Assembly (NCBI GenBank): GCA_020438845.1
Contig: JAGQTV010000072.1
Coordinates: 106,494-170,493 of the forward strand
DNA: 64,000 nt
Reading direction: 5' to 3'
Origin: Mycobacterium sp.
Lineage (GTDB): Bacteria; Actinomycetota; Actinomycetes; Mycobacteriales; Mycobacteriaceae
Position 1 is the stretch's first letter, and each line of letters opens with the position of its first letter. Positions 31,216-47,525 of this stretch are shown piece after piece. The notes under the pieces are model-generated. The model saw only the letters and a list, made by a program, of their open reading frames with translations, searched no databases and was not told where the DNA came from. A program made the translations under genes and the position numbers.

Positions 31216-33495
31216 GTGCCCGAGGTTAAGCACGTGACGGTCGGTGCCGTCACGGTGTTTCTCGGATACGCCGCGTGGCTCCTGGGGGGTTGGTCTCACG
31301 GAGACCTCCGCGAGGTCGTCAACGACGCCTTTTTCATACTCCTGCCAACACTGGCCGCCGTTGCCGCCGGGCTTGCGGCGCGGTCACAGTTGGGCAGGCA
31401 GCGCCGGGCGTGGACTGCGCTGGCCGTCGGGTTGGCCGGGTGGGCGGTCGGGAGCGCTTTCTGGGCCTTATACGAACTGGTGTTGGACCGCTACCCGATT
31501 CCCTCGCCTGCCGATGCGGGGTACTTGATCTTTCCTCTCGGCGCCGGTGTTGCCCTGCTGTTGTTTCCTGCTGGCGGTTATGCGAAGGGCCGAGCCTTCC
31601 TCGACGGCGTGATCGTGGCTGCATCGGCATTTTTCATCAGCTGGGTGACCGTTCTGGATGAGGTCTTCCGGACCAGTCAGCAGAGCCGGTTCGCGATGGT
31701 CGTCGGGTTGGCCTATCCCCTATTGGACGTCCTACTCCTGACCTTGGCTGCGACGGTGCTGGCTAACGATCAGGTGCATCAACGGCGTGCGGTGACTCTG
31801 CTGGCCACCGGGGTTGCGTGCCTTGCGGTGGCGGACAGCGTCTTCTGCTACCAAAACGCCCAAGGCACCTATGCCACCGGCAGCCCGGTCGACCTCGGTT
31901 GGGCCGCAGGCTTCCTGGTCATCACGGTGGCCGCCGCGGTTGCCCGCGCCGGAACGGACGCGCCAGACACGTCGACGACGCCGCCCGGTTGGGTCTCGGT
32001 GTTGCTGCCATATTCGCCACTGCTACTGGCTGTCATGGTGGCGATCGCCGCACCACGCACTGTCCTGAATTCGGGCCCGGTGCCGGCCATTGGGGCTGTC
32101 CTTGTGTCAGCGGTTGCCGCGCGCCGGGCCGTGACGGTGATCGAGCATCGACGGCTGGTGGCTAGTTTGGAGCAGGCGCGACGGGATCCGCTCACTGGCT
32201 TGGCCAATCGCGTGACGTTGTACGAACGTCTGCACGGGGCTCTCCAGCCGAGTGATCGCGGCTGCGTGGGTGTGCTGTCGCTGGATCTCAACGATTTCAA
32301 GCTCGTCAACGACTCGCTGGGTAACGATGCCGGTGATGGGATGCTGATCGGCGTAGCCAGAAAGTTGGCAGCTGCAGTCGGCGCCGACGACACGGTCGCC
32401 CGGCTGACCGGTGACAACTACGTCGTATTGGTCGAGGGCGGTGTCGATCGTCTCAATGAAGTCGCCAACCGCGTCTTGGCCGTGTTCGACGAACCGTTCG
32501 TGGTCAGCGACTCCGAGGTGGTGATGTTTCCCAGCGTCGGACTCGCCGTGGCGAATGCAGAGGATTCGGACGTCTCGGCCGAGGAACTGCTCAGGCGCGC
32601 CGACATCGCGATGCATGCCGCGAAGAGATCGCGAACCGGCGCGGTACAGACCTTCACCCCGCGGATGAACAGTGCTGCGGCGCGATGGGACCCGTTCGCA
32701 TCCCCCGATCACACTGGGGCAGTCCAGCTTGCGCTGCTCGGCGAATTCCGCCAGGCCATAAGCAGATCGGAGTTAACGCTGTTCTACCAGCCGCAACTCG
32801 ACCTGATAAGCCGGCAAGTCGTGAGTGTGGAAGCCTTGGTCCGCTGGGACCACCCCAAACGCGGTCTCTTGGGCCCCGGCCAATTCCTGCCACTGGTCCG
32901 CCGATACGGACTGATGGGTTCGGTGAACGATTTCGTCGTCAAGCGCGCCCTCGACGATGCCCTGACATGGCGTGCGGCATCAGTCGACATCTCGGTTGCC
33001 GTCAATCTGTTCGCTCCGAGCTTTGCCAACCCCACGCTGTCTGGGATGATCGCCGGGGCCTTGGCGGATCGGGGTCTTGCCCCATCGACATTGACCATCG
33101 AGATCACCGAGGACTTGCCATTGGACGACATGGAACGCGCCCGGGCGGTGATCGAACAACTGCACCGAGACGGCGTCCGCGTCGCCCTCGACGACTTCGG
33201 CAGCGGCTACTCGACGTTGTCCCAGTTACGTGACCTCTCGATCGACGAGGTGAAACTGGACCGGGGTTTCATCGCACCCATTACCTCCGACGAGGCCGCC
33301 GCGGCCGTCGTCCGCGCCATGATCGGGTTCATCCATGCCCTGGGCCTGACCGCCGTCGCCGAAGGTGTCGAGGACGCCTCCACCGAGGCGCGACTGCGGG
33401 AAGCCGGGTGCGATCTGGCCCAGGGTTACCTGTACAGCAAACCGTTGACCAGCCAGGAGTTGATCGATCTGGTGAGGAGCCGGCAAGAGTTCTAA
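31216..33495 (+). CDS. Membrane c-di-GMP phosphodiesterase: degenerate GGDEF plus intact EAL
   Basis: The 759-residue protein starts at GTG 31216 behind aggaggga. About nine hydrophobic segments fill residues 8-300. A GGDEF domain (about 325-480) has its active motif changed to TGDNY (398-402), so cyclase activity should be lost, although substrate or GTP sensing is possible. The EAL domain (about 505-755) keeps the catalytic set: EAL at E539, N in VAVNLFAPSF, E in IEITED, DDFGSGYSTL, K in DEVKLDRGF and AEGVED. It should hydrolyse c-di-GMP in response to a membrane signal. It converges on a SpoIIE phosphatase gene. Confidence 0.9.
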   Translation: MPEVKHVTVGAVTVFLGYAAWLLGGWSHGDLREVVNDAFFILLPTLAAVAAGLAARSQLGRQRRAWTALAVGLAGWAVGSAFWALYELVLDRYPIPSPADAGYLIFPLGAGVALLLFPAGGYAKGRAFLDGVIVAASAFFISWVTVLDEVFRTSQQSRFAMVVGLAYPLLDVLLLTLAATVLANDQVHQRRAVTLLATGVACLAVADSVFCYQNAQGTYATGSPVDLGWAAGFLVITVAAAVARAGTDAPDTSTTPPGWVSVLLPYSPLLLAVMVAIAAPRTVLNSGPVPAIGAVLVSAVAARRAVTVIEHRRLVASLEQARRDPLTGLANRVTLYERLHGALQPSDRGCVGVLSLDLNDFKLVNDSLGNDAGDGMLIGVARKLAAAVGADDTVARLTGDNYVVLVEGGVDRLNEVANRVLAVFDEPFVVSDSEVVMFPSVGLAVANAEDSDVSAEELLRRADIAMHAAKRSRTGAVQTFTPRMNSAAARWDPFASPDHTGAVQLALLGEFRQAISRSELTLFYQPQLDLISRQVVSVEALVRWDHPKRGLLGPGQFLPLVRRYGLMGSVNDFVVKRALDDALTWRAASVDISVAVNLFAPSFANPTLSGMIAGALADRGLAPSTLTIEITEDLPLDDMERARAVIEQLHRDGVRVALDDFGSGYSTLSQLRDLSIDEVKLDRGFIAPITSDEAAAAVVRAMIGFIHALGLTAVAEGVEDASTEARLREAGCDLAQGYLYSKPLTSQELIDLVRSRQEF

Positions 33496-33532: not shown

Positions 33533-35746
33533 TCAGGCCGTGAGACAGAATTCCGAATCGGATGCAAGCGCTGGGTTCTCCGAATCACTGCACGAAGGCC
33601 CGAATCGCGCGATCAGCAGGCAGACGTCGTCCAACCGCGGCGACGGCGCAGCCTCGGCGGCGATCGCCTCGCAGTCAAGCAGATCGGCCGACGGCCAGGA
33701 GGCGATCATCTGCTGGAGGCGAACGATTCCCGCTTCGAGGCTGCAGTAGTCGTGCTCCACCAGGCCGTCGGTGTACATCACCAGCACGTCGCCCGGGCCT
33801 ACGTGCACTGCCGACTCGGCGTAGACGGCATCGTCCACCGGCCCCAGAACGGGGCCGAGCGCACCCGAGAGTCTGACCACCTCTCCGGTGTTGGCACGGC
33901 GAAGCAGCGCGGGCGGGTGTCCGGCCGAACTCAGGGTTATCAGGCTGGTGGCCGGGTCGAAGACCGCAATCAAGTTGGTGGCGAATCCACCCCGCATCTG
34001 GCTCGCCGCAAACGAATTGAGCTCGCTGAGCACCCGTGCGGGCCGAAGACCCTGATGGGCGTAGGCGTTTCCGGTGCTGCGCAGCTGCGCCATGTCTTCC
34101 ACCGCCATCAGCCCGTGGCCCATGACGTCACCGACGGACAGAAATGTCCGACCGCTCGGCAATGGAAAGACGCTGTACCAATCGCCGCCCAGGCCGTCGG
34201 CGGTATCCGAGGGACGGTAGTAGGCGCGGTATTCCATTCCGGCAGAGCAGACTTGGGCCGTCGGATGCGCGGCCGCGTGCAGCACCAACGCGCGGGCGTG
34301 CTCGTCGGCGTAGGACTTCGCCCGCACCAGGGCCGGGCCGGTCATCGACGCCACGGTCGAGAGATACGCGAGCTGCTCGGCATCGAACGGTTGCCGCCTG
34401 GCCCAGGCCAACACGATGACGCCGACCGGCTTTTCGCCCGAGAACAGCGGCCAGGCCCCGAGCGACTCAGCCTCATCGATGCGGATCCCCTCGCATCCGG
34501 ACCCGTAGCGATGCTCGCCGTCCTCCGTCGAGGGGAGGATGATCATGTGTCCCGACCGTGTCGCGTCGGTGGCGATGCAGCGATCGGTGAGGAGAGGTCC
34601 GTCGACCGGTTCCGAGGACGACCCGAGTGCGCCGACCGCCGCGATCCACTCGAGCCTGCTGCCGTCGTGGTTGACCAGCCCCAGCTTGAACGTGGTGGCG
34701 TCGACGTCGGCGAGTAACTGTTGCTCGATGGCGCTTCCGACGTCGCGCGGGGTGAGTTCGGCCGAGAGCCGTAGAGCCAATCGCGACAGCGATTCCAGCC
34801 GCAACCGTTCCCCCCGCTCGGCATCGCGTTCCTCAAACGCCCTTTTCCTTCCGGAGACTTCCTGGGCGATGACCATGGCGATGAGCACGAGAAGCGCGAT
34901 GAAGATCTGTGCCACCGCCACCCTGACCGAGTCTGAGAGCTTCATATTTCCCAGCTGGCCCAGGTGCGAACCGGTCATGAAATTGCCCACCGCTGCGATG
35001 ACGACGCCGGTCAGAGCGGTGGCGAGCATGCCGATCCGGAAGGCGGCCCACGCCAGTACCGGCACCAATGCCAGGGCCGGGGGAAGGGGCGAACCGAAAC
35101 CCACCGTTGCCAGACCCAGCGCGGCCAGCAGAAGGACGAGAGTCTCGGCGGGCCGCGCCTTAAGTGTGTAGGACTGCTTACGCCACAACAGGATCGAGGA
35201 CCCGATCACCAGCACGCTGATCACGTCGCCGGCGAACCACTGCAGAGCCGTGGTGAGCCAAGGCGTGCCCTCCGCGAGGTGGCTGGTCGTGCCCCCGACG
35301 GCCCCGCCGACCAGCGGCCCGGCCAGACATGCCCCACCGAGGTAGACCCAGAAATCCCCAGTACGGCGCAAATCAGGCGCCTGGTGGCACCAGAGGCGGA
35401 CTATCGAAGCGCCGACAAGAGGCTCGATGACGTCGGCCAGTGCGTAACCGGCCGCCATCGGCAGCGCCGACCCGCCTTCCAGGTCGACCAGCACCTCACC
35501 GAGGACAATGGCAGCCACGATCGCAGGCCAGACCGATCGACGGGTCAGCAGCATCGCCGCCACCGTCAGTCCCGCCGGTGGAAAGAACGCAGAAGCCGCG
35601 ATAACACCGAAGACCTGCGCCGAGATTTCGGCACCCACGATGTAGCCCACACAGACCAGAGCGAAAACGCGGACCGCGAACCGCATGGGTTCCGAACCGC
35701 CGAACACCCCGGTCGTCGACTCCGAATCTCGACGATCGACGTGCAC
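33533..35746 (-). CDS. MASE1-GAF-SpoIIE serine phosphatase
   Basis: The 737-residue protein has a MASE1-type integral membrane sensor with about eight helices (roughly 25-315), a short coiled coil (SGRKRAFEERDAERGERLRLE), a GAF domain (about 335-480) and a PP2C/SpoIIE phosphatase domain (about 505-715) with the metal aspartates in GGDWYSVFPL, VGDVMGHG and MYTDGLVE. Such proteins dephosphorylate anti-sigma-factor antagonists in partner-switching pathways, tying a membrane signal to sigma-factor use. The GTG at 35746 is preferred: TAGTCT at 35753-35758 lies exactly 6 nt upstream, a leaderless promoter; ATG 35686 is the alternative. Confidence 0.9.
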   Translation of the reverse strand: MHVDRRDSESTTGVFGGSEPMRFAVRVFALVCVGYIVGAEISAQVFGVIAASAFFPPAGLTVAAMLLTRRSVWPAIVAAIVLGEVLVDLEGGSALPMAAGYALADVIEPLVGASIVRLWCHQAPDLRRTGDFWVYLGGACLAGPLVGGAVGGTTSHLAEGTPWLTTALQWFAGDVISVLVIGSSILLWRKQSYTLKARPAETLVLLLAALGLATVGFGSPLPPALALVPVLAWAAFRIGMLATALTGVVIAAVGNFMTGSHLGQLGNMKLSDSVRVAVAQIFIALLVLIAMVIAQEVSGRKRAFEERDAERGERLRLESLSRLALRLSAELTPRDVGSAIEQQLLADVDATTFKLGLVNHDGSRLEWIAAVGALGSSSEPVDGPLLTDRCIATDATRSGHMIILPSTEDGEHRYGSGCEGIRIDEAESLGAWPLFSGEKPVGVIVLAWARRQPFDAEQLAYLSTVASMTGPALVRAKSYADEHARALVLHAAAHPTAQVCSAGMEYRAYYRPSDTADGLGGDWYSVFPLPSGRTFLSVGDVMGHGLMAVEDMAQLRSTGNAYAHQGLRPARVLSELNSFAASQMRGGFATNLIAVFDPATSLITLSSAGHPPALLRRANTGEVVRLSGALGPVLGPVDDAVYAESAVHVGPGDVLVMYTDGLVEHDYCSLEAGIVRLQQMIASWPSADLLDCEAIAAEAAPSPRLDDVCLLIARFGPSCSDSENPALASDSEFCLTA

Positions 35747-38099: not shown

Positions 38100-39371
38100 A
38101 TGGGGAGCCGTCTTCGCGTGGCCGTTGGTCGACGGCCCGTATCCGCAGCAATCGTCATGGCCGTCGCAGTGGCCACCGCTTCATCAGTTCTGACGACCTC
38201 GACCGTCGTCCAGGACACCGCGCTGCCGACCACCTGGCCGGTTCAACTCTCGGCGGTCGTCACCCCGGGAAGCGCGACCAACTGGAGCGCCGAGGGCATC
38301 GACAAGTTCTACGGGCTCGACTGGAACACGATGTACGGGACGAATCCAGACGTGTACGGTCCGACCGTCGTCGTCAATTTTCATCTGCTTCGGGACTGGA
38401 TCCAGATCGCGGACATCGACGCGGTGCTCAAGGCCAATGCCGACGAGCGGAACGTGGTCCTGACGTCGGGCCGAGGTGCCGGCAACGCCAGTGCACTCAT
38501 CGGCAAGTACGTCCGCAACGGCGACCCGACCCTGTACGAGACCGACTGGATTCTGGACAACAACATCGATCGGCCCAACGGCGGCTACGCCTCTCGGTTG
38601 CCGTTCTTCGCACTCGTCGTGGTGAACCCGATTCCTACGCCGACCGACACCGGTGCACCCATCATTGACGTCGGCTACGAGTACGCCTGGAACTCGGATG
38701 TCCCGCTGTACGTGACCAACCCGCTCGCATTGCTGAATTCGATCACCGAGTACGTCTACCGCTACCGCAAGCAGGACGCCACCCCGCTGCCCGCTGAACT
38801 GCTCAATCCGGACGGCTCGGTGAATTACAGCCCCGCACAGGGCCCGGGACATTACATCGTCCATGCCGACGGTAGCGTCTCGTTCGAGCCGCTGTCCCCG
38901 GACAACACAACGGTTTACGTGACCTACGAGGACTCAGGCCTGGCACTACTGCGCCCGATCCGAGACTTCGGCGGCAAGCCCGGCGAGATCGTCGCCGACC
39001 TCATCGAGCCGACTCTGAAATTGATCGTCGACGCCGGCTATCCGGACAACAATCCGTTGAGCCCGCCCGACGTCTACACCCCAATGCGACTCCTCCCCCC
39101 GCCCAAGGTGGTACTGACCGCAGCCAAGGGATTGCCGGCGGCGATCGCCCGGGGCATTCAGGCGGCCAAGGCTGATTGCGCGACAACCGGCCTTGCGGTC
39201 CCATCAACCTCGGCGCGCGCGGTGACGGTTGACCGACCCCGACCCGGCAAGGCGGTAGCGTCGACGGTGGTCCAGGCAACGGCGGATCAGGCACAGGAGG
39301 CGCGAATGGTGGACAACAAGCCCGCGCGGCCGGTCAGGACGCCACGGCAAAGACAAGCTGTGACGCGGTGA
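38100..39371 (+). CDS. Secreted PE-PPE domain protein
   Basis: The 423-residue protein has a signal-anchor sequence (VSAAIVMAVAVATASSVL) with a preceding ggggga ribosome site. The body contains the PE-PPE (DUF/PF08237) landmarks NNIDRPNGGYASRLPFF, PIIDVGYEYAWNSDVPLY and NPLALLNSITEYVYRY, so this is the alpha/beta-hydrolase-like domain without a PE or PPE module. Where family members usually carry GYSQSA, the sequence is SGRGAGNASALIG, so the serine nucleophile appears lost. The C-terminal 90 residues are Pro/Arg-rich. Its stop overlaps the next start (GTGA), implying coupling to the NYN protein. Confidence 0.82.
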   Translation: MGSRLRVAVGRRPVSAAIVMAVAVATASSVLTTSTVVQDTALPTTWPVQLSAVVTPGSATNWSAEGIDKFYGLDWNTMYGTNPDVYGPTVVVNFHLLRDWIQIADIDAVLKANADERNVVLTSGRGAGNASALIGKYVRNGDPTLYETDWILDNNIDRPNGGYASRLPFFALVVVNPIPTPTDTGAPIIDVGYEYAWNSDVPLYVTNPLALLNSITEYVYRYRKQDATPLPAELLNPDGSVNYSPAQGPGHYIVHADGSVSFEPLSPDNTTVYVTYEDSGLALLRPIRDFGGKPGEIVADLIEPTLKLIVDAGYPDNNPLSPPDVYTPMRLLPPPKVVLTAAKGLPAAIARGIQAAKADCATTGLAVPSTSARAVTVDRPRPGKAVASTVVQATADQAQEARMVDNKPARPVRTPRQRQAVTR

Positions 39372-40216
39372 CCGAACCCGGCGCCGCCCGCGTCGCGGTG
39401 TACCTCGACTTCGACAACATCGTGATCTCGCGGTACGACCAGGTCAACGGCCGCAACTCCTTTCAGCGCGATAAAGCCAAGGGCCTGGAAGCATCGCGCC
39501 TGGGCCGGGCACGGGTTGACGTCGGCGTGATCCTGGACTTCGCATCGTCGTTCGGAACGGTAGTGCTGACTCGCGCTTATGCCGATTGGTCAGCCGACGT
39601 CAACTCCGAGTACCGCGAACAGTTGGTGGGCCGGGCGGTGGACCTGGTGCAGCTGTTCCCGGCAGCGGCCTACGGCAAGAACGCAGCCGACATCCGGTTG
39701 GCGGTCGATGCGGTGGAGGATATGTTCCGGCTACCGGATCTCACCCATGTGGTGATCGTCGCCGGGGACTCCGATTACATCCCACTGGCGCAGCGGTGCA
39801 AACGCCTCGGCCGGTACGTGGTTGGCATCGGTGTGGCCGGATCCTCGAGCAGGGCGCTGGCGGCAGCCTGCGATGACTTCGTCATCTACGACTCGCTGCC
39901 CGGGGTTCCGCCATTCGAGCCTTCCTCGTCGGAAACCGAGCGCCCCAGCCGAACTCGGAAGTCCTCCGAGCCGCCGCCGCCGGATCCGCAAACCGCGGCC
40001 ACGGAACTGCTGAGACGTGCCCTGCAGATCAGCGCGGACAAGGACGACGACGAGTGGTTGCACAACTCGGCGGTCAAGGCCCAGATGAAACGGATGGACC
40101 CGTCATTCTCCGAGAAATCCCTGGGGTTCAAGTCGTTCAGCGACTTCCTGAGGTCACGCGCCGAAGTGGTGGAGCTCGATGAGAGCTCGACCACCCGCAT
40201 GGTAAAGCTGCGCTAA
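39368..40216 (+). CDS. NYN-domain ribonuclease-like protein with C-terminal LOTUS/OST-HTH domain
   Basis: The 282-residue protein starts at a GTG overlapping the PE-PPE gene stop. The NYN (LabA/DUF88, PIN-like) domain covers about 8-180 with acidic residues in VYLDFDN (D14, D16), KNAADIRLAVDAVEDM and VIVAGDSDYIPLAQR, and GVAGSSSRALAAACDDFV. After a Pro/Ser linker, residues 210-282 form an OST-HTH/LOTUS domain (WLHNSAVKAQMKRMDPSFS...GFKSFSDFLRS), which binds RNA. It is therefore a probable RNA-processing enzyme. The coupling to an exported protein is unexplained. Confidence 0.85.
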   Translation: MTEPGAARVAVYLDFDNIVISRYDQVNGRNSFQRDKAKGLEASRLGRARVDVGVILDFASSFGTVVLTRAYADWSADVNSEYREQLVGRAVDLVQLFPAAAYGKNAADIRLAVDAVEDMFRLPDLTHVVIVAGDSDYIPLAQRCKRLGRYVVGIGVAGSSSRALAAACDDFVIYDSLPGVPPFEPSSSETERPSRTRKSSEPPPPDPQTAATELLRRALQISADKDDDEWLHNSAVKAQMKRMDPSFSEKSLGFKSFSDFLRSRAEVVELDESSTTRMVKLR

Positions 40217-40470: not shown

Positions 40471-40836
40471 ATGAGCGTTCCGCCCGGCCCACCGCCCTGG
40501 CCTCCGCAGCCACCCTGGCAACCACCACCGCCTTGGCCGCCCCGCCAGCCGAAGCCGATCAACGTCGGCTTGGTGTTCCTGGGCCTCATCCTCGGAACCG
40601 TGCTGTGGACCGCGACTCTGCTGTTCATGTTGGCCGTCAACAACTCGGCGGCTGAGTTCTACCACCTACCCGTCAACGTCCTCTACATCGGTGAGAGTCT
40701 GCTGGTGGCAGGTTTGGCCATCGCCGCGATCGCCCACCCGAAAACCCGTCAACTCGGCGCGGGCCTCTTGTTGGGGATCGCCATCGGCACCGTCGTATGG
40801 TCCGGGTTGTGCGCCATCATCGGAACCGGATTATGA
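40471..40836 (+). CDS. Proline-rich small membrane protein
   Basis: The 121-residue protein begins with about 28 residues of Pro/Trp-rich cytoplasmic tail (PPGPPPWPPQPPWQPPPPWP), then three hydrophobic helices (about 31-54, 64-85 and 94-118). It is the first gene of a four-gene operon: the Lgt-like gene starts 4 bp after its stop. No known family is recognised. Position suggests a membrane partner of the Lgt-like or radical SAM protein. The 254 bp before it contain no supported gene. Confidence 0.75.
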   Translation: MSVPPGPPPWPPQPPWQPPPPWPPRQPKPINVGLVFLGLILGTVLWTATLLFMLAVNNSAAEFYHLPVNVLYIGESLLVAGLAIAAIAHPKTRQLGAGLLLGIAIGTVVWSGLCAIIGTGL

Positions 40837-40840
40837 ATCC

Positions 40841-41620
40841 ATGCCACCGGGATTAGGCCCCACTGCAATCCACGCGTTCTTCGTCGCTGCGGGCGTGGCC
40901 GTCGCGGCGGCGGTATTCGCCGTCGAGGCCCGCCGACGCGGAACCACCGATGAACGGGTGCTCTACGTGGTCACCGGCGCTCTGGTCGGCGGCGCTTTGT
41001 TCATGCGCCTGGGCACCTGGGCCCGGCATGTCGACCCCGCCGATAACGCCTCGCTCGTGGAGCAGTGGTTGTACGGCAACCGGTCGATTCTGGGTGGGCT
41101 CGTCGGGGCCTGGCTGGGCGTGCACGTAGCAAAACGCCTGGTGGGCTATCGGATGCGTACCGGAGACTTGTTCGCACCGGCGGTCGCGGCCGGTATGGCA
41201 GTCGGCCGGGTGGGCTGCCTGCTGACCGAAAAGCCCGGCACCCCGACCGCGGGCGGCTGGGGCCTGCACTTGAGCCCACAACGGGCCGCGGAATTCGGCA
41301 TGCCCGCCGGCGTCGGATTGCATCCGTCGTTCGCCTACGAAATCGCCTTCCATGCAGTCGCATTCGCACTGTTGTGGGGATGGGCCCGGCATCAGTCGCT
41401 GCCGCCCGGGGAGACTTTCGTGTGGTACGTAGCCGGTTACGGGGTGTTCCGCTTCGCCGTGGAATTCGTCCGCGGAAACGAGGTGGTGTGGCAGGGACTC
41501 ACCCGTCCCCAATTGTTCCTCCTAGCAACGGTGCCGATCGTGTTTGCCCGTATCGCCTGGCAGTGGCGCCGGGGTGGCTATGCCGCACTGCGACCGGCTG
41601 TCCGGCAGGTACCGGCATGA
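40841..41620 (+). CDS. Lgt-family (prolipoprotein diacylglyceryl transferase-like) membrane protein
   Basis: The 259-residue protein starts at ATG 40841; an upstream frame from 40691 is antisense-like Arg/Ser-rich sequence. About seven helices carry Lgt landmarks: GNRSILGGLVGAWLG at the signature position, LFAPAVAAGMAVGRVGCLL for ApxxAiGqaiGRiGNF, TPTAGGWGL, and RFAVEFVRGNEVVWQG near the C-terminus. The signature histidine (HGG in Lgt) is replaced (ILGG) and the GRxGN asparagine is cysteine. It may therefore move a different lipid group or bind phosphatidylglycerol without lipoprotein transfer. ATGA overlap with the radical SAM gene. Confidence 0.82.
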   Translation: MPPGLGPTAIHAFFVAAGVAVAAAVFAVEARRRGTTDERVLYVVTGALVGGALFMRLGTWARHVDPADNASLVEQWLYGNRSILGGLVGAWLGVHVAKRLVGYRMRTGDLFAPAVAAGMAVGRVGCLLTEKPGTPTAGGWGLHLSPQRAAEFGMPAGVGLHPSFAYEIAFHAVAFALLWGWARHQSLPPGETFVWYVAGYGVFRFAVEFVRGNEVVWQGLTRPQLFLLATVPIVFARIAWQWRRGGYAALRPAVRQVPA

Positions 41621-43182
41621 CGGTGCGTGGCGGTGGAATGCCGTTGCGCGGAGATCGTATTCATCGCTACGTCAACGCGTTCTGCCCGATCTGCCATGAG
41701 GAGTACCCGCAGCGGCCGCTTGCTGAGGTGGCGCGTTTGAGCGGCTGGCTGGTCGAGCGCGATGGGCGAATGTGGCTGGAGCGCGGTTGCGCCCGGCACG
41801 GTCTGGTGCGCACGCTCTACGACGAGTTCCCGGAGATCCTGCGCTATCTGGAACAGTGGTCGGCGCCGACCAAGGTTCATGAGCCCGACTCGCGCGGCAA
41901 CTTCTCCCCCGTGCCGGCCGCCTACGCTGACGGCCTTCCGGAGATGCAGACCCAGCACACCTGCATCCTCCTGGAGGATCTGCTGGATCACTGCAACCTG
42001 AAGTGCCCGACCTGTTTTGCCGAGTCCGAGCCCGCGCTGTCCTCGGTGGCGCCGCTGGAGCAGGTACTGGCCAACGTCGATACCCGGCTTCAGCGTGAGC
42101 AGGGGAAGCTGGACGTGGTGATGCTTTCGGGCGGCGAACCGACGCTATATCCGTGGCTGGAGGAACTGCTGGCCGCCCTGGTGGCCCGACCGATCGTCCG
42201 AATACTGCTCAACACCAATGGGCTACGAGTGGCCCAGGACGACAACCTGGTCGCACTACTGCGGCGGCACCGCGAACGTGTCGAGGTCTACCTTCAGTAC
42301 GACGGCGAATCGGCGGAGGCGTCACGATTCCACCGCGGAGCCGATCTGAGCCGTTTCAAAGAGGCTGCTGTGAAACGTCTTTCCGGTGCGGAGGTCTTCA
42401 CGACACTGACCATGACGGCCACCCGGGGTGTCAATGACGACCAGATCGGCGTGGTCCTCAAGCGTGCCCTCGACACCCCCTTCGTCGGCGGAGTCACCAT
42501 CCAGCCGACCTTCGCCAGTGGTCGCAGCTCCGGTGTGGACCCCATGGACCGGCTCACCCACACCGGCGTGCTCGCCCGCTTGGAGGAGCAGACCGGCGGC
42601 GCAGTGCGGTGGAGCGACCTCACCGCCCTTCCGTGCTCGCACCCGCATTGCTGCTCTGTGGGCTACCTGTTGCGCGACGACACCGGTTCGTGGCGTTCAC
42701 TGACCGCACTCGTCGGCCACGATCGCCTCAAAGCGTGGCTCGATCTGGAGCCCGGCCTACTGGCCAACCGCATCGCCGACGATGCGATCCCTGACACGCT
42801 GCAGGCCGCGGTCAAGGAATCGCTGCTGGGTCTGCTTTCCGAACAGTCCTCGTTGTCGCACCCACGGATCGGCGAGATCTGGCGCGATATCTGTACGAGC
42901 TGTGACCTGGGCATCGGGACCCTGAGCACCCTGGCCGCATCCCGACTCCCGGGCCGCAATCAGCGGCTGCGAAAGTTACTGGGTGAGAGAGTTTTACGGG
43001 TGACGGTCAAACCCTTCATGGACGTCAACACCATGATCGAGGAGCGGCTGACCCAGTGTTGCGTCCACGTAGGCACGATGGGGCCAACCGGGGCCCACCA
43101 GTGCGCGCCGTTCTGCGCCGTGCAGGCCTGGCCGGCACTGGCTGCGGGACGGCTACCCGCCGCCACGAAGAACCGGATATGA
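41617..43182 (+). CDS. Radical SAM protein of the tetraether/membrane-spanning-lipid synthase (Tes-like) type
   Basis: The 521-residue protein starts at ATG 41617 overlapping the Lgt-like stop. The N-terminal zinc-type module has C23-P-I-C26 and C58-x-x-H61. The radical SAM cluster site is C126-NLK-C130-PT-C133, followed by MLSGGEPTLYPWL, the SAM-binding GGE motif. Extra cysteines at 340, 345, 346, 426, 429, 481, 482, 496 and 500 suggest one or two auxiliary Fe-S clusters. N-terminal CxxC, CNLxCPxCF and a Cys-rich C-terminus are the pattern of the Tes/MJ0619 family, which couples lipid tails by C-C bond formation. The lipid substrate here is unknown; a peptide-modifying role cannot be excluded. 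Confidence 0.8.
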   Translation: MTVRGGGMPLRGDRIHRYVNAFCPICHEEYPQRPLAEVARLSGWLVERDGRMWLERGCARHGLVRTLYDEFPEILRYLEQWSAPTKVHEPDSRGNFSPVPAAYADGLPEMQTQHTCILLEDLLDHCNLKCPTCFAESEPALSSVAPLEQVLANVDTRLQREQGKLDVVMLSGGEPTLYPWLEELLAALVARPIVRILLNTNGLRVAQDDNLVALLRRHRERVEVYLQYDGESAEASRFHRGADLSRFKEAAVKRLSGAEVFTTLTMTATRGVNDDQIGVVLKRALDTPFVGGVTIQPTFASGRSSGVDPMDRLTHTGVLARLEEQTGGAVRWSDLTALPCSHPHCCSVGYLLRDDTGSWRSLTALVGHDRLKAWLDLEPGLLANRIADDAIPDTLQAAVKESLLGLLSEQSSLSHPRIGEIWRDICTSCDLGIGTLSTLAASRLPGRNQRLRKLLGERVLRVTVKPFMDVNTMIEERLTQCCVHVGTMGPTGAHQCAPFCAVQAWPALAAGRLPAATKNRI

Positions 43183-43538
43183 GCGGCGAGCACGATCCCC
43201 GCCTGGTTTCCCCGCTGCGGGCTGATTCCGTGCGGGCTGATTCAGTGCGAGCCGATTCGGTGCGAGCCGATTCCGCACAGCCGACTGCGTTCGACCCGCT
43301 GCGGCTGTGCATCTTCGCGACCGTGGCGCTGCTCGGCTGGCTGCTGGGCCCAATTGCGCTGATTTTCTTTGCCGGTCTAGGGTTTTCGGGCTATCTGCGG
43401 GCCCGCCGAGCCGGATTGGCCCGGTCACGGTGCCTGCTGCGTGACACCCGGCTGGTGCTGGCCTACCTGGGCGTGCTGATCGTGGCCGGGGCGGCTGGGC
43501 TCGTGCTGGCCGTTAAGGGCTACTGGTTGGGGTGGTGA
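43179..43538 (+). CDS. Small membrane protein with RADSV repeats
   Basis: The 119-residue protein starts at an ATG overlapping the radical SAM stop (ATGA), so it is the fourth operon gene. The N-terminal 40 residues contain four copies of RADS(V/A), coded by 15-bp tandem repeats. Residues 48-119 have two to three hydrophobic helices separated by YLRARRAGLARSRCLLRDTR, a positively charged loop. It overlaps the end of the convergent Lnt-like gene by 19 bp. No family recognised. Confidence 0.75.
   Translation: MSGEHDPRLVSPLRADSVRADSVRADSVRADSAQPTAFDPLRLCIFATVALLGWLLGPIALIFFAGLGFSGYLRARRAGLARSRCLLRDTRLVLAYLGVLIVAGAAGLVLAVKGYWLGW
43216..43275. repeat. Four 15-bp tandem repeats
   Basis: Units tgcgggctgattccg, tgcgggctgattcag, tgcgagccgattcgg and tgcgagccgattccg run head to tail and encode (V/L)RADS units of the small membrane protein. 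The first two and the last two resemble each other, as if a pair was duplicated. Confidence 0.9.
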
Positions 43539-45055
43539 GGCGTCCGCCGCTTGGACACCACCATCGCACCGATCATTAACAGGGTCGCAGCGTAGGTCAG
43601 CCACTGAAACGGCACACCGCCGACCGTGGTGAACGGCGCTCCGCGCGGGCCCAGCGGGACATCAGCCACCAGCAGTGCCTTCTCGCCGCGCTCGGTATGC
43701 GCCGCAGTACTGTCGATCACCCGGCCGTTGGGTGCAACGATCACCGAATCCCAGGCGACATCGGCCTTCACCATCGCCACGCGATTCTCGATGGCGCGGA
43801 AGGCCGTCGACGTCGCGCGCACATCGGCGATCGACTTGAAGTCGATGCTCGGAGCCAGGATCACCTGGGCACCGTCATTCGCCACCTTGCGTGCCGGGCC
43901 GTCGGGGAAATCAATGTCGAAGCAGATGATCATGCCCAGCACACCCTGGGGCGTCTGGAGGGTCGGGTACACCGTCCCAGGGGTGAACTTCTCCCCCTCG
44001 ACGAGCACCCGTTTGGTCTTGAGATAGAGAAACTTCACTTCGCCGTCCGGGCCCCACAACAGGCCGGTGTTCGGGGCGGCGCCATCCTGCGGATCGGGGG
44101 TGAACCCCATCGCCAGGTACACACCGGTCCGGCGGACCAGTTCCGGAATCCAATCGGTGTGGTTGACTCGCGGGTCGTAGGAAAGTGCCTCCTCTGGCCA
44201 GACAACCACTTTGGCGCCCTGCGCGGCGGCATCGCGGGTCATCGCCTCGAGTTGGGCTATCTGCTCAGTGATGCGCTGTTCCTCGGACCGTCCGGGATTG
44301 ATATCCCCCGCCGAGATCAGGGTGCCCGGAGTTGCGTTGTCCAGACCCGGCTGCACAGCAGCAACCCTCACGTCGGGACCCATCCGGTTCGTCACGTCGC
44401 GGAAGATCAGAATACTTACCGCCGTCCAGATCACCACTGCTGCAACGGGAATCCCCACCGACCAGGTCAACACCCGGCGGGGCACCGCGACGCCGGCCAG
44501 GCCGGGCCGGATCCGGTCGATCAGGGCAATGACCGCAAGGCCAACCGCCGCGTTGACGACGTGGATCAACAGGCTCAGAGCGGGAGTTCCGGTGATGCTG
44601 ATCGGCTGCACGATTTCGGGCACCGGGGCCAACCGGTAGGCGATCCAGGTGTAGGTGCCGATGATTTCGTTGTTCTGGAGCAGCAGGTCCAAGGTCACCC
44701 AGATCAACGGAAGCTGCAGGACGAACCAGCGATAGTTCGTTCGTTCGGCGAAGGGCCGCAGGAAGATTCCGATGACCCCGCCGACGATCCCGGCGGCGAC
44801 ACCGATACCGACGATCGGGCCAATATCGAGGACGGAAGTGGCGTGCAGAAACAGCGCGAAGTAATAGGCAGCGAACGCGATGGCCACCGCGAGCGCGCTC
44901 CACTTCCGCGGCAGGACTCGGTATTGCGCCACGTACATCGGGACGAACGCGACGCACGTCAGCCACCACAGGTTCCCGAATGTCGGCCAGATCAGGATTA
45001 GCAGTGCCGCTGTGAGCAAGGCGAGGAGCACGCCCCCGACCAGTCGCCGGATCAT
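43520..45055 (-). CDS. Apolipoprotein N-acyltransferase-like protein (Lnt family)
   Basis: The 511-residue protein has about seven helices in the first 215 residues, a nitrilase-type (C-N hydrolase) domain at about 230-480 and a last helix. The catalytic triad is visible: E288 in VVWPEEAL, K346 in YLKTKRVL and C378 in MIICFDIDFP, with the glutamate-bearing loop VEGEKFTPG in place of the usual FGEYVP. It should transfer an acyl chain to lipoprotein N-termini or a related amine outside the membrane. Mycobacterial Lnt is often fused to or next to a mannosyltransferase; none is here, so this may be a paralogue. TAGCTT lies 6 nt before the ATG (leaderless). Confidence 0.87.
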   Translation of the reverse strand: MIRRLVGGVLLALLTAALLILIWPTFGNLWWLTCVAFVPMYVAQYRVLPRKWSALAVAIAFAAYYFALFLHATSVLDIGPIVGIGVAAGIVGGVIGIFLRPFAERTNYRWFVLQLPLIWVTLDLLLQNNEIIGTYTWIAYRLAPVPEIVQPISITGTPALSLLIHVVNAAVGLAVIALIDRIRPGLAGVAVPRRVLTWSVGIPVAAVVIWTAVSILIFRDVTNRMGPDVRVAAVQPGLDNATPGTLISAGDINPGRSEEQRITEQIAQLEAMTRDAAAQGAKVVVWPEEALSYDPRVNHTDWIPELVRRTGVYLAMGFTPDPQDGAAPNTGLLWGPDGEVKFLYLKTKRVLVEGEKFTPGTVYPTLQTPQGVLGMIICFDIDFPDGPARKVANDGAQVILAPSIDFKSIADVRATSTAFRAIENRVAMVKADVAWDSVIVAPNGRVIDSTAAHTERGEKALLVADVPLGPRGAPFTTVGGVPFQWLTYAATLLMIGAMVVSKRRTPHHPNQ

Positions 45056-46166: not shown

Positions 46167-47525
46167 ATGCCTAGATCGGGAGTCGGCGCCTCTCATGCCG
46201 CCCTATTCACTTTGAACGAGCCTCGCAGTCTCAGCGATAAACAGAAATTGATGTGGGCGGCCGGAGCTATCGCTTACCTGTTCGTCACGGTTCTGGCCTA
46301 TTTGCGCTCCACGGTCAATCTCACTCCTCATCCGTGGTTCCCCATTACCCAGGCATGGGTGCTGTCGGCCATTTCGGGAGTGATCTCCTTCCTCCTGTAC
46401 TGGCAGGCCCACGCATCCCGTTCTCGCGGCTTTCTCTGTCTGGCCGCCACTTTCATGTATCTGTCGGTAATCCTGTTTGCCTTCCCGCTGTACTTCCCGG
46501 GCGCTATCGCGAGGGAAGGTATCCTGCTGGGAGACGCCCAAAGCCCGATTACCGTCTTCTACTTATGGCACTTCGCAGTTGTCTTGGGCTGTCTGGCGTC
46601 GGCGCTCCTACTGCGCAGCGGCAATAAGAAAACTGAGGGCTTGACATCCCACGGGCTTGCGATCGGGATAGCCGCGGCCGGTCTGCTGGCGGTGGCGAGT
46701 CTGCTCTGGGTGTCGCTCGGCGAGCCGTACCTTTTTCGGCTGATCACCGACGACGGGATCACTTCCTTGGCCGTCATCGTCGATTACGCGCTCCTGGCGG
46801 CGAGCGCAATAGCGTTGACTGTGGTTTCACCATTTGTTCTGTCGGGGTCCTTCATTCAGCGCTGGATCGTGGTGGTCCTTGTTTTGGCCGTCGGCGAAGC
46901 CGTGGTCAACGTGACCGTCGATCGATGGTCATTCGGCTGGTACTTCAATCGGGGTTTCGGGATGATGGCACTGGGCGGCCTTCTCGTGGTTCTCGCCTGG
47001 CGGATCGCCATCCTCAATCAGGCTACGAACCAGGCAGCGGCCTATGACCCCCTAACCGGAGCCCTGAGTCGGCTGGGAGTGACGGCCGCCTTGGCCGGTC
47101 TCGTGCGGCGGGGGTCAGCCGCCTCACCATTTGCTCTGCTGTGGATTGATTTGGACAAGTTCAAACACGTGAACGACCAGCATGGTCACAAAGCCGGCGA
47201 TCACGTTCTTCGCGTCGTGGCGGCCCGATTGCTTGAGTGCATTCCTGGCGATGACCTGGTCGGTCGAATGGGCGGAGATGAGTTCGTTGTGCTGCTCCGA
47301 GGCGAGACGGAGCCCGACGCCATTGCAGGTCGCATAATGGCCTCGGTGAATCGTCCCATTCGCCTCTCCGCCGAGGCTCAGGTCAATGTTTCCTGTTCCA
47401 TTGGAATCGTGCGTTGGCCAGGGCAGGATGCGACTGTGGAAGAGCTGCTGCATGCCGCGGACTTGGCGATGTACGAAGCAAAAAACGCTGGGGGCAACAT
47501 CTCTCGAACCAAAGCGAGCGCCTAG
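46167..47525 (+). CDS. Membrane diguanylate cyclase (MASE4-like sensor plus GGDEF)
   Basis: The 452-residue protein has eight to nine hydrophobic segments at about 28-285 in a MASE-type sensor with conserved aromatic spacing, then a GGDEF domain (about 292-448) beginning AAYDPLTGALSR. The active motif GGDEF (369-373) in GRMGGDEFVVLL and the preceding WIDLDKFKHVNDQHGH are intact, so c-di-GMP synthesis is expected. The inhibitory I-site arginine is absent (PGDD in place of RxxD), so product inhibition at that site is unlikely. Its counterpart, the EAL protein, lies 13 kb upstream in the window. Confidence 0.9.
   Translation: MPRSGVGASHAALFTLNEPRSLSDKQKLMWAAGAIAYLFVTVLAYLRSTVNLTPHPWFPITQAWVLSAISGVISFLLYWQAHASRSRGFLCLAATFMYLSVILFAFPLYFPGAIAREGILLGDAQSPITVFYLWHFAVVLGCLASALLLRSGNKKTEGLTSHGLAIGIAAAGLLAVASLLWVSLGEPYLFRLITDDGITSLAVIVDYALLAASAIALTVVSPFVLSGSFIQRWIVVVLVLAVGEAVVNVTVDRWSFGWYFNRGFGMMALGGLLVVLAWRIAILNQATNQAAAYDPLTGALSRLGVTAALAGLVRRGSAASPFALLWIDLDKFKHVNDQHGHKAGDHVLRVVAARLLECIPGDDLVGRMGGDEFVVLLRGETEPDAIAGRIMASVNRPIRLSAEAQVNVSCSIGIVRWPGQDATVEELLHAADLAMYEAKNAGGNISRTKASA

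Follow-up and report, generated by a model that had tools for sequence, protein, structure and literature searches.

A co-inherited module of an Lgt paralogue, a Tes-like radical SAM protein and a small membrane protein with a C-terminal GxC tail in a mycobacterium and its relatives

What would a mycobacterium do with a second homologue of the prolipoprotein diacylglyceryl transferase (Lgt), encoded directly beside a radical S-adenosylmethionine (SAM) protein? The question is raised by a four-gene operon on the forward strand of a 64,000-nucleotide stretch of Mycobacterium sp. DNA (assembly GCA_020438845.1, contig JAGQTV010000072.1, positions 106,494 to 170,493; the whole stretch is called the window here). 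The genes encode P1 (40471..40836, 121 residues), with a Pro-rich N-terminal tail, three predicted transmembrane (TM) helices and a C-terminal GxC; the Lgt paralogue (40841..41620, 259 residues), after a 4-bp gap; the radical SAM protein rSAM (41617..43182, 521 residues); and the small membrane protein P4 (43179..43538, 119 residues), the last two each starting in an ATGA overlap with the preceding gene. This linkage had been noticed in the original prediction and its coordinates are borne out; third-position GC content is 0.77-0.80 across all four reading frames, and a scan for promoters and terminators gave no signal above shuffles. The same prediction had proposed that the operon makes or installs an unusual lipid on a lipid or protein. 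We find that the Lgt paralogue, the Tes-like rSAM and, at nearly all loci, a small GxC membrane protein are co-inherited as a unit. The explanation that we favour, with somewhat less than an even chance of being right, is that the operon is a dedicated lipid-modification module and not a housekeeping lipoprotein locus; to this extent the proposal is partly supported.

The searched set of 119 genomes comprised the window's own and 118 relatives; the searches scored first-look candidates (at most 22 Lgt candidates per genome among the matches listed), and absences hold at that sensitivity. Matches to rSAM occur in 27 genomes, two of which (G064 and G116) carry a distant paralogue only, leaving an orthologue in 25 of the 119. 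The Tes-linked Lgt, at 350-502 bits, is present in the same 25 genomes, and the remaining Lgt matches reach at most 103 bits; given shared ancestry, the chance figure computed for these identical sets is no probability. An Lgt gene lies within 0.85 kb of rSAM at 24 of 24 relatives' loci and at 79 of the 80 loci of a genome-contig set (the best 80 of 379 confirmed relatives); a contig end truncates the 80th. The co-occurrence of Lgt-like and radical SAM genes in other genomes, which had been named as a check on the original prediction, is found. Locus L062 is the same DNA as L032, the locus of genome G032; it was left out of the generic GxC scan described below and kept in the linkage, P1, neighbour and P4 counts. 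Gene order varies, Lgt lying 5′ of rSAM in Nocardioides and Knoellia and 3′ in Microbacterium, and flanking genes differ between genomes of the window genome's own genus. Isolates with the module include members of Microbacterium, Nocardioides, Knoellia and Arthrobacter.

P1 matches no Pfam family and lacks the N-terminal signal peptide and lipobox of a lipoprotein: it has a Pro-rich start, and its cysteine lies 7 residues from the C-terminus, within the motif G112-L113-C114 (40804..40812, + strand; Cys codon 40810-40812). Strong matches to a P1 profile (2.4e-14 or better) were found in 24 of the 25 module genomes and in none of the 94 others, where nothing fell below E = 1e-10 and the weak matches had E values of 7e-5 or worse; the 25th (G074) has a divergent P1 that was found by hidden Markov model (HMM). 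Away from the module there was no strong genome match to P1, and weak profile matches, seen in three of the six genomes or records, came to nothing. With an iterated HMM, P1-like proteins with at least two TM segments were recovered at 102 of 113 loci, and each of these 102 has a copy in which a cysteine stands close to the C-terminus. This cysteine is present in 115 of 124 P1 copies, 5-14 residues before the stop, and 111 of those 115 have Gly at position −2. Among 61 representatives sharing less than 50% identity, the Cys column is 95% and the Gly(−2) column 92% conserved. An alignment of 26 P1 sequences, 17-40% identical to that of the window, has only three invariant columns, numbered G77, G91 and C93 in the aligned fragment: G77 is the Gly at the start of the last helix, and G91 and C93 are the G and C of GxC, C93 being C114 of the window protein. 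P1 is located between Lgt and rSAM at 23 of 24 relatives' loci and upstream of Lgt in L032 and the window, and it is duplicated at some loci.

A generic, sequence-independent scan looked for the same tail as a hydrophobic stretch, then GxC, then 3-20 residues before a stop. A same-strand match lies within 1.5 kb of 93 of 111 modules, one module of Bacteroidota included; there were no matches in 933 kb of other flanking DNA and none on the opposite strand near the 111 modules, and P1 is the only match in the 64 kb window. Because many of these loci had already yielded a P1 by the time the thresholds were chosen, the 93 of 111 does not count as independent evidence; the empty background does. 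The 18 misses comprise 11 modules whose P1, detected by HMM, does not pass the hydropathy or GxC threshold; L206, positive by a relaxed scan; L092, L107 and L120, which end at or near contig edges; and L098, L164 and L165, which lack such a protein. GxC tails also occur on proteins outside the reach of the P1 profile or HMM. Besides the Persicobacter protein described below, these are a DUF2510 protein whose C-terminal half is hydrophobic (L166) and, at L130, a protein rich in Pro.

Charge counts (Lys plus Arg over Asp plus Glu) in 102 three-TM copies of P1 were 183/66 in the N-terminal flank, 40/117 in loop 1-2, 239/17 in loop 2-3 and 16/25 in the C-terminal tail, from which the N-terminal flank and loop 2-3 are predicted to be inside and the C-terminal tail outside (N-in/C-out). 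P1 belongs to the module and is marked by a GxC close to its C-terminus, at what is predicted to be the outer face of the membrane; both points go beyond what had been proposed for this locus. A lipoprotein signal peptide, as Lgt sees it, is a helix with a basic inner start and a cysteine at its outer end. The last helix of P1, with its basic start, hydrophobic core and GxC outside, would resemble such a signal peptide and lipobox, placed at the C-terminus. In the favoured explanation the Lgt paralogue would move a diacylglyceryl group onto the GxC cysteine. We infer that the paralogue acts on P1 as the simplest reading, since the two accompany each other in 24 of 25 genomes by profile and in the 25th by HMM; we put C-terminal lipidation of P1 close to an even chance. 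With less assurance, rSAM, presumably cytosolic, would direct 5′-deoxyadenosyl radical chemistry at a hydrocarbon chain, either in the lipid donor or in the lipid once attached, by coupling (tail joining), desaturation or other C-H functionalisation, and P4 would hold rSAM at the membrane or supply it with electrons. In favour of this, rSAM has a Tes-like fold, and the active site of Tes binds lipids (PMC9433317). That rSAM acts on lipid chains is plausible and, in our estimate, rather short of even; tail joining in particular is unlikely, and it is improbable that C-terminal lipidation is combined with joining of the attached chain to another lipid, which would create a covalent, membrane-spanning protein anchor.

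Pfam LGT matches the Lgt paralogue over nearly its whole length (1.2e-26; 93.9 bits against a gathering score of 24.9), and in 20 of 20 Tes-linked rows R143, R239, Y235, G154 and E243 (E. coli numbering) are retained; the window protein also keeps R246. In Lgt, R143 and R239 position the phosphate of phosphatidylglycerol (PMC13251419), and these arginines are shared with the canonical enzyme. The paralogue differs from canonical Lgt in falling below the TIGR00544 equivalog cut-off (61.7 against 118.9 bits), in its place in the tree, where one branch (100/97) parts 25 Tes-linked from 21 canonical Lgts, and in its residues. The position of N146 is Cys in all 20 rows, a pairwise alignment agreeing (C126 of the window protein), and H103 is replaced by L, I or M (L in the window). 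The Y26 column is His in 20 of 20 rows by MAFFT, an assignment that depends on the aligner: pairwise alignment puts Phe at Y26 and His at H24, and Tyr appears in neither. The paralogue is the second Lgt of the window genome, the canonical copy lying elsewhere (G000:C113). N146C alone is not diagnostic, being found too in an Lgt counted as canonical, from a plasmid of Fusobacteria (L205, 648-1484); this other diverged Lgt has F26 and keeps H103, and there is no radical SAM gene in the 2.1 kb retrieved. A second Lgt homologue of M. smegmatis, MSMEG_5408, is reported to carry Y26H and N146C and is presumed to have low Lgt activity (PMC13251419). Because this reported pair matches the signature of the Tes-linked clade, MSMEG_5408 is probably a member; in the excerpted text of that report it is described as an Lgt only, with no radical SAM or GxC partner mentioned.

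As for rSAM, Pfam matches are Radical_SAM (3e-16) and Zn_ribbon_HMPTM (8.8e-10), and every motif that had been picked out from the sequence is present: C23xxC26, C58xxH61, C126NLKCPTC133 and the many C-terminal cysteines (340, 345, 346, 426, 429, 481, 482, 496 and 500). The radical SAM CxxxCxxC (C126, C130, C133; 41992..42015, + strand) is invariant in 23 aligned rows, an alignment that omits L033 (genome G100), which has an in-frame TAG, and L055, which is cut. At L033 that TAG interrupts the rSAM reading frame while Lgt, P1 and P4 matches are there, by decay or sequencing error; at L166 (G276) rSAM has about 70 extra residues, inserted around query position 355, in a single open frame. Both the rubredoxin site CX2C...CX2H (C23, C26, C58, H61) and the CX3CX2C align with those of MJ0619, the Tes or GDGT-macrocyclic archaeol synthase (glycerol dialkyl glycerol tetraether; PDB 7TOL, 7TOM), and the whole-enzyme fold is Tes-like. 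The claim of a Tes-like radical SAM enzyme stands for these features and fails as to a true Tes, which the model NF045702 (144.4 bits against a curated cut-off of 450) and the altered ligands described below rule out. Candidate cysteine ligands of the C-terminal cluster, [4Fe-4S]C, are retained (C345, C481/C482, C500). Further differences from Tes are the near-invariant C346, C426, C429 and C496 and the location of the gene next to Lgt and P1. No model by the name of Mss, the bacterial membrane-spanning lipid synthase, was among the matches listed.

Several observations weigh against the favoured explanation. For P1, nine additional copies lack the cysteine; a few that bear it lack Gly(−2), namely those of L054 and L113, with V or A in its place, and one copy in L036; conservation is as high in other columns, at 100% for a Gly of the first helix and 95% for the one that opens the last helix; GxC differs from a lipobox in that the Cys mostly follows P, A, V, F, I or L; and there is no GxC protein near the modules of family f59 (L164 and L165; L167 and L168 are cut) or that of L098. 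The Lgt paralogue is altered at Y26, H103 and N146, and since these are essential in E. coli Lgt (PMC13251419), it may be no transferase at all. The structure model of rSAM has a mean pLDDT (predicted local distance difference test) of 65. The cysteines of the N-terminal cluster [4Fe-4S]N (Tes C73, C77, C80) are gone from rSAM of the window and from 14 other actinobacterial Lgt-linked rows, and the labile Met439 of [4Fe-4S]C is replaced by K465; the enzyme of the Bacteroidota module, in Persicobacter, in turn lacks equivalents of C345 and C500. Because of these losses Tes chemistry is not to be assumed.

The Tes-like fold would also suit a free lipid product, with rSAM coupling or altering acyl chains of free phospholipids, the Lgt paralogue shifting glycerol-lipid units and P1 and P4 serving as scaffolds, to yield an unusual or membrane-spanning lipid, much as the original prediction had it. 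Bacterial Tes homologues have been proposed to act in the synthesis of branched GDGTs (PMC8941075, PMC11868695), a role given as without experimental confirmation in the excerpt of the latter report. We hold this unlikely: it leaves unexplained why GxC tails recur beside the pair, even on proteins unmatched by the P1 profile, and two ligand sets of Tes are altered.

Peptide chemistry could instead come first, rSAM modifying P1 near its GxC tail in a step like those of ribosomally synthesised and post-translationally modified peptides (RiPPs) and the Lgt paralogue lipidating or recognising the modified tail. The partner gene is small and sometimes duplicated (two copies each in L036, L178 and L182, for example), and hybrids of RiPPs and lipoproteins made through the lipoprotein pathway exist (PMC12636315). 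The closest relatives of rSAM are Tes and TrsS, however, and affiliation with the peptide-modifying SPASM families, which had been named as the result that would count against a lipid role, is not borne out: the best SPASM-named NCBIfam model among the matches listed (25 of 38 families) gives 28.0 bits against a cut-off of 650. The GxC cysteine is moreover predicted to be outside and rSAM is presumably cytosolic, and this order of events is improbable.

The altered essential residues of the Lgt paralogue would be accounted for if it were a lipid-binding subunit, with the cysteines of Lgt, P1 and P4 forming a membrane redox or metal relay for rSAM; high conservation marks C126 of the paralogue as well as the cysteine of P1 and two of P4. 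Such a scheme is improbable in view of the phosphatidylglycerol-binding R143 and R239 and of Y235 and G154, all kept in every Tes-linked row, and of the absence of P4 from 22 of 24 relatives' loci.

The TrsS (seleno)protein model NF045646 is the best NCBIfam match of rSAM and spans most of it (185.4 bits, 1.3e-54; curated cut-off 490), which would suit the making of a small molecule or cofactor, as TrsS-like cousins may do; we give this little credence, as the four annotated TrsS-like plasmid loci examined have a methyltransferase gene next to them instead of Lgt and no Lgt match was obtained at six loci where relatives carry a paralogue. The four loci are on an M. vanbaalenii plasmid and three haloarchaeal plasmids (L180 5959-8327, L181 4887-7165, L207 and L208), the related rSAM gene being followed directly by the methyltransferase, which in the two that were scanned is DVU_1556-like, just below the cut-off. 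The six loci (L056-L061) hold a second Tes/TrsS-like rSAM in some relatives, with the N-terminal cluster cysteines present in the rows aligned; at 28-30% identity and with no Lgt match in 10.8-18 kb of context, they are ruled out as module members. Likewise, none of nine retrieved stretches around distant Tes-like loci of a phylum sample has an Lgt match (a tenth, G317, was left out).

P4 is a common fourth part of the module and is not essential, since tblastn matches occur at 78 of the 80 genome-contig loci and at only 2 of the 24 relatives' loci. Its C44 and C85, beside hydrophobic stretches, are present in 84 of 84 matches. The Lnt-like gene noted as converging on the operon does so (43520-45055, minus strand, 511 residues, 19-bp overlap with P4); as part of the module it is ruled out, with no matches at the 24 relatives' loci and the 80 genome-contig loci. 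Clustering of neighbouring open reading frames at those 80 loci undercounts P4 and Lgt, whose counts come from the separate searches; after rSAM, Lgt, P1 and a 12-locus P4-type cluster, the commonest next cluster is found at 11 of 80, and further genes are ruled out as module parts. Recurrent neighbours at L075 and about ten Nocardioides-type loci (8-11 of 80) resemble what we take to be pyrH, tsf, frr, cdsA and rlmN, and the nearby phospholipid gene is maybe a coincidence.

In an even phylum sample there were matches in 15 of 296 genomes, and orthologous modules in four genomes outside the class (G366, G218, G239 and G276). Two modules are plasmid-borne, in M. avium and M. branderi. On the M. 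branderi plasmid the module is followed directly by IS200/IS605 transposase and TnpB genes (L182, 7740-9385), and an IS110 transposase gene is near that on the M. avium plasmid (L178, 10882-12120), a setting that fits with mobility. In the Lgt tree the window copy groups with L032, Knoellia, Nocardioides, Microbacterium, Arthrobacter and others (99/95), and the other same-genus copies in that tree group elsewhere (99/98), which suggests lateral transfer; the rSAM tree does not settle the point.

One locus lies beyond the phylum, on a plasmid of Persicobacter psychrovividus (Bacteroidota), where an Lgt-like gene overlaps a Tes-like rSAM gene, the proteins being 32% and 31% identical, respectively, to those of the window. 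Searched against plasmid records, this Lgt reaches 9e-19 or better with the Tes-linked copies of M. branderi, M. avium and Nonomuraea, and 3e-7 or weaker with the other Lgts listed. Its rSAM has the N-terminal cluster cysteines and Met at the Met439 column. A 59-residue GxC-tail protein, unmatched by the P1 profile, is encoded with its ATG overlapping the rSAM stop. Lgt-linked rows fall on one side of a branch of the rSAM tree with support of just 72/85, Persicobacter being on a long branch, and with this support a common origin with the other Lgt-linked rSAMs is not established.

Elsewhere in the window, just 5′ of the operon, an NYN domain is fused to an OST-HTH/LOTUS domain (39368-40216), and around the operon are genes for GGDEF-EAL (31216-33495), MASE1-GAF-SpoIIE (33533-35746) and MASE4-GGDEF (46167-47525) proteins.

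Both enzymes come from known superfamilies. For the pair of Lgt and a Tes-like protein, or for the three-part module with the GxC protein, no paper was found among the matches listed in open-licence PubMed Central, and the three-part module is apparently new with respect to the literature searched. Should the acceptor role of P1 be proven, the module would be categorically new. Lipoproteins of bacteria would have a second kind of acceptor site, at the C-terminus of a multi-pass protein, and Lgt a second function, which would explain extra copies such as MSMEG_5408. If the favoured explanation is true, the module would also offer work on membrane-spanning lipids a concrete place to probe the role of a bacterial Tes homologue, and mass spectrometry could test for the predicted product directly by way of the GxC-tail signature.

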